Source: a virus. From it: a stretch of DNA of 20,592 bases. Location of the stretch: the IMG/VR virus record IMGVR_UViG_3300030098_003271, positions 1 through 20,592 of that record. The stretch is one strand, 5' to 3'. Of the stretch, positions 5,077-19,760 are shown piece by piece (positions within the stretch are counted from its first letter, which is position 1; every line of letters starts with the position of its first letter). Under the pieces are notes generated by a model. The model was not told where the DNA came from. It saw only the letters and a program-made list of their open reading frames with translations, and made no database searches. Both the position numbers and the translations under genes were made by a program.

Positions 5077-5331
5077 TTACTTAGAGTTCTGTTTAATCAT
5101 TAATTCAAGAATTCTATCTAGCTTTTGATGGACTATATCCATCTCACGGATAAAATCTTGTTTCAGTACATAACCACGTACCATATCATCCTCCACACGA
5201 TTGATTTCATCTTGCAACTTGTTAAATCTTCTCTGAATTTTATCATTGAATCCATTTAAAGATTTTATAACACCAGTGAAAGCTGCTAATCCACTGGTCA
5301 CAGCAATGGCAATAACTTCTGGGTCCATCAA
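5077..5331 (-). CDS. Small membrane protein with coiled coil (84 aa)
   Basis: Residues 5-23 (EVIAIAVTSGLAAFTGVIK) form one likely membrane segment. From 29 to 80 there is a charged helical region with heptad-like Leu/Ile/Met spacing (KIQRRFNKLQDEINRVED, VHQKLDRILELMIK), so a membrane-anchored coiled coil is predicted. Two ATG codons in tandem are possible starts (5331 or 5328). The layout resembles small phage membrane proteins of lysis or exclusion type, but no holin or spanin signature is present. It is the first gene of a two-gene - strand unit with the oxygenase-like gene. Confidence 0.65.
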   Translation of the reverse strand: MMDPEVIAIAVTSGLAAFTGVIKSLNGFNDKIQRRFNKLQDEINRVEDDMVRGYVLKQDFIREMDIVHQKLDRILELMIKQNSK

Positions 5332-14418: not shown

Positions 14419-14979
14419 ATGTATAATCAAAGACCTTCTAAAATAAATAAATTGTTGGTAGGTTCTTTAGGAATTATCTTTGGTTTATCACATTTTGCAT
14501 TGATACAGTCAGCAGTTAATAAGAAAAGTAATTTACCTATAATAAATTTACCCGTAGGACCTTACACAACCTATCAGGTAGATGCTTCTGAATTTGGATA
14601 TAAGATATCATATATGGCTAATGATCCAAAGGTTTTAAATAGTATAAAGAGAAGTGAAATACCAAAAGGATTCTTTGGTAATAAGAAAGAAAAAATAGTA
14701 ATTAGTAAAGAATTTACAATGAATGGAGAGATAATTAATTCAAATACTCCTGAACAAGGCTCTGGACCAACAGACAAAGAGATAGCGTGTTACAAGATAG
14801 AAGGAAGTGGAGAGTCTACAGGAAAGCTTGTAGGGGCTTCTGTAGGTGTTAAAGCAGCTCCAGTTGTAAGTAATATACCTATCATAGGTTGGCTGGCTGC
14901 AGGATGGGTTGCAATGTTTGGACAGGACAAAGGTGCAGAGATAGGTGGTCAGATAGCACAGGACTTTAATGACTGCTAG
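14419..14979 (+). CDS. Unknown membrane protein with two hydrophobic segments (186 aa)
   Basis: Residues 11-31 (KLLVGSLGIIFGLSHFALIQ) form an N-terminal membrane anchor or uncleaved signal. Residues about 136-167 (LVGASVGVKAAPVV, IPIIGWLAAGWVAMFG) form a glycine-rich hydrophobic segment of glycine-zipper type. The polar region between them (32-135) would be outside the cytoplasm if both segments cross the membrane once each. It overlaps the next gene by 1 nt. I do not recognise a named family. Co-location with five other membrane or exported proteins suggests an envelope function; holin-like, injection-related or exclusion roles are all open. Confidence 0.7.
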   Translation: MYNQRPSKINKLLVGSLGIIFGLSHFALIQSAVNKKSNLPIINLPVGPYTTYQVDASEFGYKISYMANDPKVLNSIKRSEIPKGFFGNKKEKIVISKEFTMNGEIINSNTPEQGSGPTDKEIACYKIEGSGESTGKLVGASVGVKAAPVVSNIPIIGWLAAGWVAMFGQDKGAEIGGQIAQDFNDC

Positions 14980-15719
14980 TGTCTGAGATACCAGCAATAG
15001 GGATAGGTCAGATAAATGTCAATTCAATTCCTGTTAATAATATTAATCTTTCGACACCATTTACTCCACCTGTAACACTACAAATTGGATCTCCAATAGT
15101 TGATATTCCAGGTTGTGTTAAATTTAATCCTGCAAATAAAAATTCTATAGAACTTGTTAATCAGGATGATAGAGGATCTCGTGTCTTATGTGACGGTTCT
15201 GTACCTTGGTTTGAACCTTTGGATTATCAACCGGAGAATCTTATATACGTACAGGAAGAATCAGTTCCTGTTGTTGCACCACCTCCAGAAGCAAAGACAG
15301 ATCAACCTGGTGTAGGTGAAATACCAAAAACAGATACAGAAAAAGATGTACCGTGCCCCGGACCTACTGACCAGAGGATAGGTGACATGAGAAATGCAGA
15401 ATCCAGAGAGAAAGTTGTATCACATTCTCTCAGTCCAGATGGTAAAACCTGCATAACAAATTACGAATTAACATCACCTGTTGAAAAATATCTACCTACA
15501 ACATCACAGATAAGCACGACGGCTGCAATCGCAGTCGTGGCAACCGCTGCAGCAGCTTCAACACCCATATTATTAAGGTTAATAAAGCCACTAATAAAGC
15601 AGGTTATTAAAAGAATTAAGGCTTTGTTAGGTAAAAAAGAAAAGAAATTATTTTCTACTTCTGCTCGTCTGAAGAAGTCGAAGATTCTGACGAAAGTACG
15701 TGCTGATGATTCGGAATAA
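14979..15719 (+). CDS. Proline-rich protein with C-terminal membrane anchor (246 aa)
   Basis: The start is GTG at 14979, overlapping the previous TAG by 1 nt (TAGTG). Residues 1-90 carry IDIPGC-like strands, CVKFNPANKN at 46-55 and DDRGSRVLCDG at 63-73. A Pro-rich linker follows (97-130). Residues 179-199 (STTAAIAVVATAAAASTPIL) are a membrane span, followed at 200-223 by a strongly basic amphipathic helix (RLIKPLIKQVIKRIKALLGK) and a Lys/Arg tail. The four Cys are at 46, 71, 126 and 158. A single C-terminal span with positive residues after it puts the bulk outside and the tail in the cytoplasm. I recall proteins with the 'RGSRVLCDG' motif in cyanophages, without known function. Its end overlaps the convergent exported-protein gene by 65 nt. 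Confidence 0.7.
   Translation: MSEIPAIGIGQINVNSIPVNNINLSTPFTPPVTLQIGSPIVDIPGCVKFNPANKNSIELVNQDDRGSRVLCDGSVPWFEPLDYQPENLIYVQEESVPVVAPPPEAKTDQPGVGEIPKTDTEKDVPCPGPTDQRIGDMRNAESREKVVSHSLSPDGKTCITNYELTSPVEKYLPTTSQISTTAAIAVVATAAAASTPILLRLIKPLIKQVIKRIKALLGKKEKKLFSTSARLKKSKILTKVRADDSE
15515..15539 (+). other. GC-rich stem-loop inside the 246-aa gene
   Basis: CACGA/TCGTG and CTGC/GCAG form two stacked stems of 5 and 4 bp around the loop AATC, with a 3-nt CGG bulge on the left arm. It lies just before the part encoding the membrane span. It stands out against the AT-rich background. It may be fortuitous within an Ala-rich coding stretch. Confidence 0.35.
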
Positions 15720-16497
15720 CACCGTGAGGATTCGTCACTACAACATCTGCACAGATTTTATATGAAGGACTTTCAGGATGGAATGACACTCCAAGTTTTT
15801 TCTGCTCGGCACAGTGCTTCAATCTTGAGATCTCAAAGTCTAATCTTTTGTTAGCAACTAACTGAGCATAATATTGATTCTGTGTATCAGCAGCCTTTAG
15901 ACAGCCCTCTGTGTGTCTTCTATCTAATGGGATGGATATTGTAGCTGAGATACCCCATCCAATATTGTGATTGGATTTTTGACCTGTCCTGGTAGGTTTG
16001 TGATAAAGAATAGATCCTGGATTATCTAATACTCCATCATTGTTGGCATCACTGTTATCAAATACTGGGTCCATATAAATATCTTCATAGGGCTCTTTCC
16101 ATGAATCACTCATGGTTACAAATGGAGTGATATTCAAAGTAGATCCCTGACACTGAACTCCATTTCCATAAGTATTAGTTATATAAGGACCCTGAAGCAC
16201 CTGTATAGCTTGATTCGTAACGCTCCCTGATGAATTTGCTACTGGATTTGCAGTGGCTGATACACCTCCCACCTCATTGGCATAGACAGGAGCACCAAGA
16301 ATATTCAGTGCAATTAGTATAAACTTTACTGGCTGAACGTGGAAACCGTGTCTGTGACTGAAGTTACCTCGGTTGTTCTCTGGATTATGGTTTGAGATTT
16401 TAATCCGGGTTGACTGAGAGTTGTTGTCAGTTGCCAAGGCTTGCTGGAATCTGTTATGGAGAAGTTCGGCATGCTTGTAGCGTCTAAATTTGTCCAC
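15655..16497 (-). CDS. Exported protein, third of a secreted trio (up to 280 aa; start unresolved)
   Basis: The only upstream ATG is at 16497, but it would overlap the preceding coding region by 172 nt and put a signal peptide 56 residues inside the protein. The signal-like stretch VKFILIALNILGAPVYA|NE begins at codon 57 (16329). That codon is GTA, which overlaps the stop of the upstream gene as GTAA exactly where ATG or GTG would be expected. The mature part has GGVSATANPVANSSGSVTNQ, YITNTYGNGVQCQGSTLNIT, a calcium-loop-like DANNDGVLD, IPLDRRHTEGCLKAA, and NKRLDFEISRLKHCAEQKKL...SPSYKICADVVV near the end. These motifs are familiar from cyanophage exported proteins. The true start could be a rare codon, a frameshift or a sequence error. 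Cys pairs suggest disulphides outside the cytoplasm. Confidence 0.65.
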   Translation of the reverse strand: MDKFRRYKHAELLHNRFQQALATDNNSQSTRIKISNHNPENNRGNFSHRHGFHVQPVKFILIALNILGAPVYANEVGGVSATANPVANSSGSVTNQAIQVLQGPYITNTYGNGVQCQGSTLNITPFVTMSDSWKEPYEDIYMDPVFDNSDANNDGVLDNPGSILYHKPTRTGQKSNHNIGWGISATISIPLDRRHTEGCLKAADTQNQYYAQLVANKRLDFEISRLKHCAEQKKLGVSFHPESPSYKICADVVVTNPHGVIPNHQHVLSSESSTSSDEQK

Positions 16498-16787
16498 GTA
16501 GAATTAATTCCATTTATAGACTGGGTTGTGCTTGCAGCAGGAGGCACCAGACTATTACTATCTGTGCTTATATTATTACCTGTAACTGTATATTGCCAGC
16601 CCGTTTGATATTCAATCACATTTATGGTCTCTGTCACTGTAGAGCTAGTCTCAGTGTGACTCGTAAGACTACCACTCTGAAAGTTTGGCACTATGGGAAC
16701 GCCTATTGCAGGTGCATTCAGTGAACTTAATACGACCACAGGTATCACACTTCTCAGAATCTTCATTCTCTTTAATCGCAAAAGCAT
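16326..16787 (-). CDS. Exported Thr/Ser-rich protein, second of a secreted trio (153 aa)
   Basis: A signal peptide is visible: MKILRSVIPVVVLSSLNAPA from residue 8, with cleavage likely near 27-30. The start may be residue 1 (16787) or the ATG at residue 8 (16766). The mature part is VPIVPNFQSGSLTSHTETSS, then TVTETINVIEYQTGWQYTVT, and it is rich in Thr, Ser and Val with no Cys, suggesting a beta-structured exported protein. It lies 12 nt after the 165-aa gene. The motif 'PIVPNF..G....HTET' is known to me from cyanophage proteins without function. The stop TAA (16326-16328) overlaps the probable start region of the third gene. Confidence 0.7.
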   Translation of the reverse strand: MLLRLKRMKILRSVIPVVVLSSLNAPAIGVPIVPNFQSGSLTSHTETSSTVTETINVIEYQTGWQYTVTGNNISTDSNSLVPPAASTTQSINGINSTWTNLDATSMPNFSITDSSKPWQLTTTLSQPGLKSQTIIQRTTEVTSVTDTVSTFSQ

Positions 16788-16799
16788 GATCTTTCAGTT

Positions 16800-17297
16800 T
16801 CATTTGATTGTAATTTCACTGGTGAATTGACCTATAGCACTGGTGCCTGAGCCTCCGCCAGTTATCGTAATTGCTCCAGCTGTTGTGATTGTGCCGGCAA
16901 GGTCGCCTGCTGATCCTGATGCAGTAGAAGTTTGACTACTAAAGTTACCTACTGCTCCGACGCTAGGAGCACTTGTAGCAACTGCATCTCCTTGGGTAAA
17001 GGATTGTGTGAATGAAAAGCTGTTGCCAGCTGTCTTCTGTGTAACTTCTAAAGCTGGTATTGCACCAACTCCTGATGATATAGTCAATGATCCAAGGCCG
17101 TCAGAAACTGCACTGCCACCTGTTGGTGTATATGTTGTATCCACCCCTGATCCACTTATCGAGTAACTCGTCCCGATCCGTTCAACCTGTGTCGCTGCAG
17201 CATTAACCTGGAGCTGTATACTGCTAGATAATTTTGAAGTAATATCGGCTCTGACTGGGGCTGCAAACAACAGAAGAAAAGGTAGTATCTTCCACAT
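16800..17297 (-). CDS. Exported Gly/Ser/Thr-rich protein, first of a secreted trio (165 aa)
   Basis: The N-terminus MWKILPFLLLFAAPVRA is a clear signal peptide with a likely cleavage after A17 (VRA|D). The mature region begins DITSKLSSSIQLQVNAAATQ, then low-complexity Gly/Ser/Thr/Ala with alternating hydrophobics (AITITGGGSGTSAIGQ, FTSEITIK), a beta-solenoid or fibril-like composition. No Cys. It is the first gene of the - strand trio and is read away from the 17298-17398 gap. The ATG has no Shine-Dalgarno (ATAAACATCATG). The protein should leave the cytoplasm; whether it stays on the host surface, enters virions or is released cannot be told. Confidence 0.75.
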   Translation of the reverse strand: MWKILPFLLLFAAPVRADITSKLSSSIQLQVNAAATQVERIGTSYSISGSGVDTTYTPTGGSAVSDGLGSLTISSGVGAIPALEVTQKTAGNSFSFTQSFTQGDAVATSAPSVGAVGNFSSQTSTASGSAGDLAGTITTAGAITITGGGSGTSAIGQFTSEITIK

Positions 17298-17398
17298 GAT
17301 GTTTATGTATAAATATTCATAAGTCTATCATCCACATAAATTAGATTTACGTATCAAAAATTGATGCTTGTAGACTATCTTTAGATACAATTTTAGAT
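17298..17398. other. Divergent intergenic region
   Basis: This 101-nt AT-rich gap lies between the - strand exported trio and the + strand two-TM gene. It contains TATAAATA at 17308-17315 (+). A sigma70-like pair, TTGATG (17361) and TACAAT (17386) with 19-nt spacing, ends only 8 nt before the ATG at 17399. No clear - strand promoter box was found for the trio. Confidence 0.4.
17308..17315 (+). promoter_or_regulatory. T4-type late promoter box TATAAATA
   Basis: This is an exact match to the T4 late promoter core on the + strand, upstream of the gene at 17399 by 83 nt. It sits in a divergent gap. On the - strand it reads TATTTATA, so it does not serve the exported trio. Confidence 0.45.
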
Positions 17399-17827
17399 AT
17401 GTCTTGTCACGAAGATCATAAGGGAGAAGAAGATCCTAAAAAGAAAAAGAATGTCCTCCAGAAGATCAAAGAAAATATAGATGATAAAGAGGAACAATTA
17501 GCCTTTATCTCAGTCATAGTAAGGCTTGTCGTAGTTGGGTGGAGTGGTTTTCTCGTTAGCTTAAACTACATCTCTATACCAGGCTATGCAAATGAACCCA
17601 AGGATATCACCTTCCCGGCCAGCTTGCTGACTGCCGGAATCAGTACCTTTGGCATTGAGGCATCTCGTAAGAAGGGAGATGGTATCAATAGAAAAGATAA
17701 TGCTCCAAATTTAACTAAAGCTGATTTCGAAAAGCTTATAGAGAAGGCTTCACAATCTGCTCCTACTCAGATACTTCGTATCGAACAGGCACCTATAAAG
17801 ATTGTTACCGAGAATAAATCACAGTAG
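17399..17827 (+). CDS. Small two-TM membrane protein, holin-like candidate (142 aa)
   Basis: An acidic/basic N-tail (MSCHEDHKGEEDPKKKK, then KENIDDKEEQ) precedes a hydrophobic segment at 34-57 (AFISVIVRLVVVGWSGFLVS). A second, weaker segment is at 69-87 (ITFPASLLTAGISTFGIEA). The C-terminal tail is polar, charged and cytoplasm-like. Size and two spans would fit a holin, but the family is not recognised and no endolysin lies in the window. Proteins of this type occur in marine T4-like phages. It is read away from the exported trio and precedes the small-gene cluster. Start: ATG 17399 with no Shine-Dalgarno. A GC-rich inverted repeat lies within the gene at 17612-17639. Confidence 0.7.
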   Translation: MSCHEDHKGEEDPKKKKNVLQKIKENIDDKEEQLAFISVIVRLVVVGWSGFLVSLNYISIPGYANEPKDITFPASLLTAGISTFGIEASRKKGDGINRKDNAPNLTKADFEKLIEKASQSAPTQILRIEQAPIKIVTENKSQ

Positions 17828-18300: not shown

Positions 18301-18696
18301 ATGCACATTAGGGTTGACCTAATGAAGCATGAATTGCCCATGTTCCATACGGAAAATGATTTATTACAAAACCTTGTTGTTACCAGTCCGAAGAGTGCGA
18401 GAAAGAAATTTAGAGAAAGTATTTTTGAATCGTGGGAATGGAGATGTATGTACTGCGATGAAGCACTGACAGAAATAACAGCTACGATTGATCATATAAA
18501 ACCGAAAGTAAAAGGAGGACATTCGACTAGAAATAATATGGGTCTTTGTTGTAGTAAATGTAATTCCAGTAAAGGATCACAATTGGTATTTGATTACTAT
18601 AATAAATCTCATCCCTGTTATTCAGAAGCGAGGGCTAGTAAAATAAAAGAATGGATTGACCAGCATTTTGTAGTATGGTCATTAAAACCCGGATAA
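18301..18696 (+). CDS. Free-standing HNH endonuclease (131 aa)
   Basis: A classical HNH domain fills the middle: C49-x2-C52, then IDHIKPKVKGG at about 63-73 with the catalytic His65, an N78/N79 position, and C84-x2-C87-N88 with SSKG after it. The four Cys should bind a structural zinc and the His acts as general base for phosphodiester cleavage. The N-terminal 40 residues are basic (SPKSARKKFRES) and could bind DNA. Short HNH proteins in phages are often homing endonucleases that spread into neighbours' genomes; others act in packaging. Its place among small accessory genes, with a ribosome site unlike its neighbours, fits a mobile endonuclease. No intron or intein is seen. Confidence 0.85.
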   Translation: MHIRVDLMKHELPMFHTENDLLQNLVVTSPKSARKKFRESIFESWEWRCMYCDEALTEITATIDHIKPKVKGGHSTRNNMGLCCSKCNSSKGSQLVFDYYNKSHPCYSEARASKIKEWIDQHFVVWSLKPG

Positions 18697-19359: not shown

Positions 19360-19551
19360 ATGCAATGTTACTACTGCGATTCTAAACTAATTCAAAAAGG
19401 TTCTAATCGTCTAGATAATGACGATGATTATCGGGATACTTTTGATTTTGTTACTTATCTGGACTGCTCTAGATGTGGAGCTACAGTAGAAACTTATCGA
19501 AGACCAATACATATTATTTCTAAATTACATACCAAGAGGGAAGCAGCATGA
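19360..19551 (+). CDS. Zinc-ribbon mini-protein, copy 1 (63 aa)
   Basis: CxxC pairs at C3/C6 (MQCYYC) and C36/C39 (LDCSRCG) make a zinc ribbon, with an acidic loop (RLDNDDDYRDTFD) between them. The basic C-terminus (RPIHIISKLHTKREAA) differs from copy 2. It overlaps the next gene by 4 nt (ATGA). Small paired zinc ribbons occur in T4-like cyanophages and may bind DNA, RNA or polymerase. The specific role is unknown. Confidence 0.75.
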   Translation: MQCYYCDSKLIQKGSNRLDNDDDYRDTFDFVTYLDCSRCGATVETYRRPIHIISKLHTKREAA

Positions 19552-19760
19552 ATTGTTGGTCTTGTAATCATGAGTTGATATGGGGAGGAGATCATGATGG
19601 AGAGGATTACTGCAATGAAGAATATAATATAGTTACTAATTTACATTGCCCACGATGTGAAGCATTTGTATTGGTGTATCACTCTCCAAAAGATCCAGAG
19701 GATAGAATAGATACTGCTCCATGTTCTGTTGAAGATGATACACCTATTTGTGATATCTAA
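19548..19760 (+). CDS. Zinc-ribbon mini-protein, copy 2 (70 aa)
   Basis: It begins MNCWSCNHELIWGGDHDGED, with C3/C6 and C34/C37 (LHCPRCE) as the metal sites, and then an acidic tail. It is a tandem relative of the preceding gene. The 'CWxCxHELIWGGDHD' start is well conserved in cyanophages from memory. The stop TAA (19758-19760) overlaps the stop of the convergent oxygenase (TAG on the other strand), the two sharing CTAA. Confidence 0.8.
   Translation: MNCWSCNHELIWGGDHDGEDYCNEEYNIVTNLHCPRCEAFVLVYHSPKDPEDRIDTAPCSVEDDTPICDI

Follow-up and report, generated by a model that had tools for sequence, protein, structure and literature searches.

Among cyanomyoviruses, T4-GC 218, 219, 234, 235, and 237 were described by Sullivan et al. 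(2010) as a possibly mobile cassette without an assigned function, which was present in 15 of 16 genomes and accompanied by a plasmid-stability protein; the main text of that study neither gives a function nor describes a nested start of gene 235 (PMC3037559). With respect to lysis, the lack of a spanin was listed for at least 20 sequenced marine cyanophages (P-SSP7, P-SSM2, P-SSM4, and S-ShM2 among them), and a fragile outer membrane of the host was offered as one possible reason (PMC6139136). In this study, we analyzed a viral DNA stretch of 20,592 nucleotides (IMG/VR record IMGVR_UViG_3300030098_003271, positions 1 to 20,592; the window), which is part of a 22,176-bp virus contig whose nearest relatives are T4-like marine cyanophages. 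We focused on six linked genes for membrane or exported proteins at positions 14419-17827 (the module), comprising the five cassette genes named above and T4-GC 236. Based on conserved gene order, an out-of-frame nested gene start, and the genomic position of the module, we consider the chances about even that it is an envelope-disruption or lysis cassette consisting of a holin-like protein and non-canonical proteins acting on the outer membrane. Its features and the genes preceding it are as follows (T4-GC numbering of Sullivan et al. 2010; TM, transmembrane segment).

14419..14979, plus strand: T4-GC 219 / phrog_605, 186 aa, N-terminal TM, Gly-rich hydrophobic C-terminal part, last residue Cys
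14979..15719, plus strand: T4-GC 234 / phrog_570, 246 aa, GTG start, C-terminal TM
15655..15719: tail-to-tail overlap (65 nt) of the 3' ends of 234 (plus) and 235 (minus)
15655..16497, minus strand: T4-GC 235 / phrog_848, 280 aa, GTG start within gene 236
16326..16497, minus strand: dual-coding stretch, where the final 56 codons of 236 overlap the start of gene 235 in the -1 frame
16279..16329, minus strand: signal-peptide core of protein 235, VKFILIALNILGAPVYA, at and just past the stop of gene 236
16326..16787, minus strand: T4-GC 236 / phrog_650, Pfam DUF6322 (PF19847, E 4e-30), 153 aa, signal peptide
16800..17297, minus strand: T4-GC 237 / phrog_564, 165 aa, signal peptide, Gly/Ser/Thr-rich
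17399..17827, plus strand: T4-GC 218 / phrog_2714, Pfam DUF6450 (PF20048, E 4e-19), 142 aa
11300..14412, plus strand: tail-fiber-like protein (DUF7483, 834 aa) and 197-aa tail-fiber-assembly-like protein (phrog_4912, E 8e-4), directly upstream of the module

All six open reading frames (ORFs) given in a preliminary description of this DNA, in window order 219, 234, 235, 236, 237, and 218, were found at these positions. Since each matched a PHROG family of its own, in every case with unassigned function (E 4e-42 to 2e-114), none of them is a chance ORF. The three minus-strand proteins had been thought to carry signal peptides, and a simple hydropathy/AxA test on diverse family members agreed, revealing signal-peptide-like N-termini in 34/34 members for the 165-aa protein (237), 27/27 for the 153-aa protein (236), and 37/37 for the 280-aa protein (235). 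Searches with tblastn detected 235 in 442 phage records, 237 in 410, 219 in 365, and 234 in 361, all of them cyanophage, marine-virus, or uncultured-phage records by name. Three IMG/VR scans together with annotated genomes yielded 249 loci with 235, many of which are short fragments; 234 was present in 246, 236 in 240, 237 in 217, 218 in 199, and 219 in 108 of these. The order 237>236>235> followed by a convergent 234< was near-universal among them. The preliminary description had proposed a linked set of envelope proteins, which scattering of the genes in relatives would have contradicted; linkage and order were kept in nearly all 249 loci. Its view of the cluster as undescribed had to be given up, since the cassette was already reported from 15/16 cyanomyoviruses (Sullivan et al. 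2010, PMC3037559), and the linked genes of the window are orthologous to it, with the same PHROG and Pfam families and the same order as in S-ShM2, P-SSM2, and P-SSM4. While that report covered myoviruses only, the persistence of the core order across myo-, podo-, and siphovirus-type cyanophages is new here. The loci include siphovirus-type MED4-184 and the podoviruses Oinezvirus S37-C6 and S-SBP1; 236 is present in P-SSP7, S-RIP1/2, KBS-P-1A, NATL1A-7, and S-TIP37, accompanied by 235 in S-TIP37 and by a 234-like gene, 218, and 235 in P-SSP7, KBS-P-1A, and NATL1A-7. No plasmid-stability gene is present in the window, unlike in the published cassette; in 194 loci, 234 adjoins the gene of a small TM protein with the annotation 'plasmid stability' (phrog_568). 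Gene 219 is a looser member, located about 50 kb from the other module genes in P-HM1/P-HM2. As single deviations, 234 lies on the same strand as 235 in P-SSM4 (L004), the sole inversion of the convergent arrangement among the 249 loci, and three loci (L247, L248, L147) showed a tandem duplication or an additional 237/236-type gene inside the cassette.

The second feature concerns the start of gene 235, which is annotated differently between records. Its signal peptide is internal (KFILIALNILGAPVYA, residues 58-73), starting at the end of gene 236 or inside it. No local ATG, GTG, or TTG is found there because the conserved ATG/GTG start is nested in gene 236 in the -1 frame, about 45-56 codons ahead of its stop, and further upstream in a few lineages. 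In the window, the first 56 residues of the 280-aa protein thus overlap the 153-aa gene in another frame. Among 22 lineages less than 80% identical to each other, 19 had a -1 frame with 45 or more open codons, compared to 1.24 expected after synonymous re-coding of the same proteins, while the +1 frame as a control gave 2 observed and 1.04 expected. The frame is closed in three podoviral lineages (L095-L097), each with an ATG of its own where the two genes join. Ahead of the 235 start, the frame extends for no more than a few codons in most loci. Synonymous variation dips near this start (0.37-0.41 versus about 0.50); across the overlap its suppression is slight only (0.475 versus 0.50), which speaks against strong conservation of the extension peptide itself. 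Thus, the 280-aa start is genuine and conserved, and protein 235 has a long, poorly conserved leader ahead of its signal peptide. A frameshift or non-canonical start, suspected for want of a local start codon, was dropped once the conserved ATG/GTG had been found with the frame open from about there. In two loci (L149/L150), 235 is several hundred bases apart from 236 and has an in-frame ATG just before the signal peptide. The nested start would correct systematic start-site errors for gene 235.

Comparison with T7 and P60 showed that in T7-like cyanophages the module occupies the slot of the lysis genes. P-SSP7, KBS-P-1A, and NATL1A-7 carry a reduced set (234-like, 218, 236, 235) on one strand between the tail-fiber genes and the small terminase gene, and the module of S-SBP1 has the same position relative to fibers and TerL. 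The equivalent slot of T7 harbors the holin gene 17.5 and, between both terminase genes, Rz (18.5) with Rz1 (18.7) nested in the -1 frame; the 218 homolog of P-SSP7 takes the position of gp17.5. In P60, the same slot contains an endolysin gene, a gene for a TM plus coiled-coil protein, and one for a small membrane protein, with no annotated module gene. The module thus shares with T7 the slot after the tail fibers and a small membrane protein beside an exported pair, the gene of one partner being nested out of frame in that of its companion: the start of 235 inside 236 in the -1 frame is a conserved trait of the Rz/Rz1 type. It differs in that no family match to the T7 proteins was found, the exported proteins are not lipoproteins, and no N-terminally anchored coiled-coil i-spanin is present among the six; instead, there are two to three exported proteins and one C-terminally anchored protein. 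In detail, a lipobox-like motif, as expected of an o-spanin, occurred in 0/37 (235), 2/27 (236), and 0/34 (237) representatives, and instead of the N-terminal TM plus periplasmic coiled coil of an i-spanin, 234 has its TM at the C-terminus in 58/61. We therefore do not class the module as a spanin system. Elsewhere in the window (5077-5331, minus strand), an 84-aa protein with a TM and a coiled coil (phrog_462 'lipoprotein', related to phrog_12220) resembles an i-spanin by its sequence, but no partner for it is obvious; its relatives occupy the lysis slot in P60, Syn5, and S-SBP1.

In the window, the module directly follows the tail-fiber-like gene and a weakly recognized fiber-assembly gene, as t follows 37 and 38 in T4, though no similarity was seen between holin t and the module proteins. 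The T4 t gene is a single gene whose product has one TM and a large periplasmic domain. Fiber-like families were detected within 4 kb of the module in many loci of several phage types. Two further kinds of neighbors were noted, namely a small outer-membrane beta-barrel (Phage_OMP, PF24653), which podoviral loci and some myoviral ones encode near the module (L089:8577-8966, L003:158-610, L088:10758-11738), and an exported protein (phrog_591), often beside 218 in cyanomyoviruses (L103:10283-10945 and 34 other loci), whose HExxH-like motif (RHEGWHAAQ) makes a metallopeptidase possible.

In isolate-type myoviruses, 24 of 46 non-redundant loci had the element CTAAATA/TTAAATA starting 27-38 nt ahead of 237, and 14 of 39 had it at this distance ahead of 218, compared to 25 of 1621 other ORFs (1.5%); in the same scan, it was absent before 236 and 219. 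According to a review, the late promoter is NATAAATA in S-PM2 and TATAAATA in T4 (PMC2984593). As the element differs from this consensus, we call it late-promoter-like rather than identical. Lysozyme genes were also found near the module. A PF18013/phrog_512 lysozyme-domain protein with an N-terminal hydrophobic segment is encoded 79-103 bp from 237 in four loci and at about 2 kb or less in others, and PF00959 lysozymes lie 2.2-3.7 kb from the module in 13 loci of the window's clade. On the contig of the window itself (G000), a PF00959 lysozyme (E 4e-12) is encoded at about 21357-22061 (L249:958-1662), just outside the window and about 3.5 kb beyond 218, which by its sequence is probably the endolysin of this phage. 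S-PM2 has a lysozyme without 218, 234, or 235, but since this contig carries module and lysozyme together, we do not claim that the module and a stand-alone endolysin exclude each other.

Of the membrane proteins, 234 (246 aa) has no signal peptide; it revealed an acidic N-terminal part with four conserved Cys and a single C-terminal membrane segment followed by a basic tail (median net +13). It is homologous to podoviral phrog_9426 (P-SSP7 gp42), as indicated by a P-SSM2 match (E 1.6e-4) and a common PSYxPL motif (E 1.9e-6). Protein 218, holin-like by its sequence, has one strong and one weak membrane segment and charged ends. Compared with the two TM and charged C-terminus of a class II holin, hydropathy gave one strong segment in most members and two in 8/42; the P-SSP7 homolog is annotated with two TM. 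For 219, an N-terminal TM and, by eye, no evident coiled coil were noted.

Based on these results, the module may be a cyanophage-specific lysis cassette that breaks the host envelope as infection ends. Protein 218 would act as a holin-like protein of the inner membrane. Proteins 236, 235, and usually 237 would reach the periplasm or outer membrane by export and, along with 234 in the inner membrane, would replace a spanin by disrupting or bridging the outer membrane. The wall would be cut by a lysozyme encoded elsewhere in the genome. For 234, we infer an N-out topology, and for the exported proteins a direct action on the outer membrane. We favor this reading because the minimal set 234-218-236-235 sits in the slot of the T7 holin and P60 endolysin, the module of the window follows fiber and fiber-assembly-like genes as holin t follows 37-38, the order 237>236>235>|<234 persists in unrelated phage types, the nesting of 235 in 236 recalls Rz/Rz1 genetics, late-promoter-like motifs precede 237 and 218, lysozyme genes lie near the module, and marine cyanophages are listed as spanin-less (PMC6139136). 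Several findings weigh against it. In the T4-like isolates S-ShM2 and P-SSM4, the module lies near hsp20 among replication genes and not after the tail fibers, and the promoter motif was not found at its usual position in the window or its clade. Matches to 218, 234, and 235 were not detected in Syn5, S-PM2, PSS2, and S-CBS4, which nevertheless lyse cells, and three muralytic families gave no match in most module phages tested (P-SSP7, S-SBP1, KBS-P-1A, NATL1A-7, MED4-184, P-SSM2, P-SSM4, Oinezvirus). Furthermore, the proposed N-out topology of 234 is not backed by a signal peptide, many members of the 218 family show only a weak second membrane segment, no significant structural homolog was found, and neither lysis phenotype nor proteomic or localization data were found for the module. 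A more specific version, in which 236 and 235 (with or without 237) form a ring or beta-pore together with 234 and the holin-like 218, as an outer-membrane breaker that is neither spanin nor disruptin and common to different morphotypes, appears possible but rather unlikely.

Of the functions offered by the preliminary description, lysis with disruption of the outer membrane is thus the one we retain, while superinfection exclusion gained no positive support. In a wider form of the latter, 235-237 would sit on the outer membrane, anchored or exported by 218, 219, and 234, and would block or mask receptors. Exported proteins without enzyme domains, the restriction to cyanophages, the adjoining tail-fiber genes, and the Phage_OMP genes near the module in some phages would all fit such a surface alteration. 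Order and composition are nevertheless the same in three virion types whose tails, and presumably receptors, differ, the promoter motifs are late-like rather than suggesting early expression, the position is that of the T7/P60 lysis genes, and the module proteins gave no PADLOC match to anti-phage defense or exclusion systems, so we regard this explanation as improbable.

Somewhat less probable still is an extracellular or trans-envelope structure (ring, tube, or fiber) formed by 235-237 for virion release or cell aggregation rather than lysis, an option of the preliminary description for which we obtained nothing beyond very weak fold resemblances. The AlphaFold2 model of 236 (predicted local distance difference test, pLDDT, 81) displays two very long beta strands of 23-24 residues at its ends; this protein would have 146 aa if started at the ATG at 16766. 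Its best PDB matches in Foldseek were lower-collar rings of phages (8egr, E 7e-3, prob 0.80; 6qz9, E 0.034) and beta-pore proteins such as lysenin, but with E 7e-3 or worse and TM-scores of 0.27 or less throughout they are not reliable, and the modeled resemblance to a ring or beta-pore is a hint at most. Proteins 236 and 237, both Gly/Ser/Thr-rich, are likely paralogs (hhalign E 1.7e-10, to which the signal peptides may contribute in part), which would suit such a structure. Mature 235 (about 206 aa, four conserved Cys) was modeled with a pLDDT of 71, short beta strands, and a 43-residue helix; no PDB analog was found, and confident viral structure matches were cyanophage relatives only. A TolC-like fold, suggested by eye, was discarded as not significant (Foldseek to VceC, E 4.0). 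Searches of all six families against PDB sequences revealed no relatives, those against NCBIfam and PADLOC nothing useful, and Pfam no family of known function. The curli (CsgG/CsgF) operons of pelagiphages and methylophages likewise represent outer-envelope secretion genes in marine phages, yet none of the six proteins matched a CsgG, CsgF, or CsgA profile of Pfam.

Auxiliary genes for host-envelope or thylakoid physiology, kept for progeny yield and not for exit, are quite unlikely. The module is confined to phages of marine picocyanobacteria and lies near hsp20 and other accessory genes in T4-like isolates, as such genes might, but this would leave the T7-like slot unexplained, and unlike most auxiliary metabolic genes it has no relatives in bona fide cyanobacterial chromosomes. 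About 85,000 genomes contained seven matches, mostly on contigs of metagenome-assembled genomes (MAGs) or single cells, and a host origin was rejected. These seven GTDB contigs with close 235 relatives (L261-L267; Prochlorococcus single cell, Formosa, Nonlabens, and Euryarchaeota MAGs, and others) are probably phage contigs binned with or contaminating those genomes. Minor virion components passing through the periplasm or membrane, to which the neighboring tail-fiber genes and late-promoter-like motifs could point, are just as unlikely, because proteins built into virions in the cytoplasm do not usually carry Sec signal peptides, and here there are three independent ones.

Prochlorococcus and Synechococcus rank among Earth's most abundant photosynthesizers, and phages kill many of them by lysis. 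The module is a concrete, testable candidate for the exit of spanin-less marine cyanophages through the host envelope and, if the lysis reading is true, would assign a role to several 'unknown' families that are widespread in marine cyanophages. S-TIP37 is genetically tractable, and REEP engineering has been published for it (PMC8776855). Downstream of the module, the window additionally encodes an HNH endonuclease-like ORF and two adjoining small zinc-ribbon-like proteins (18301-18696 and 19360-19760).

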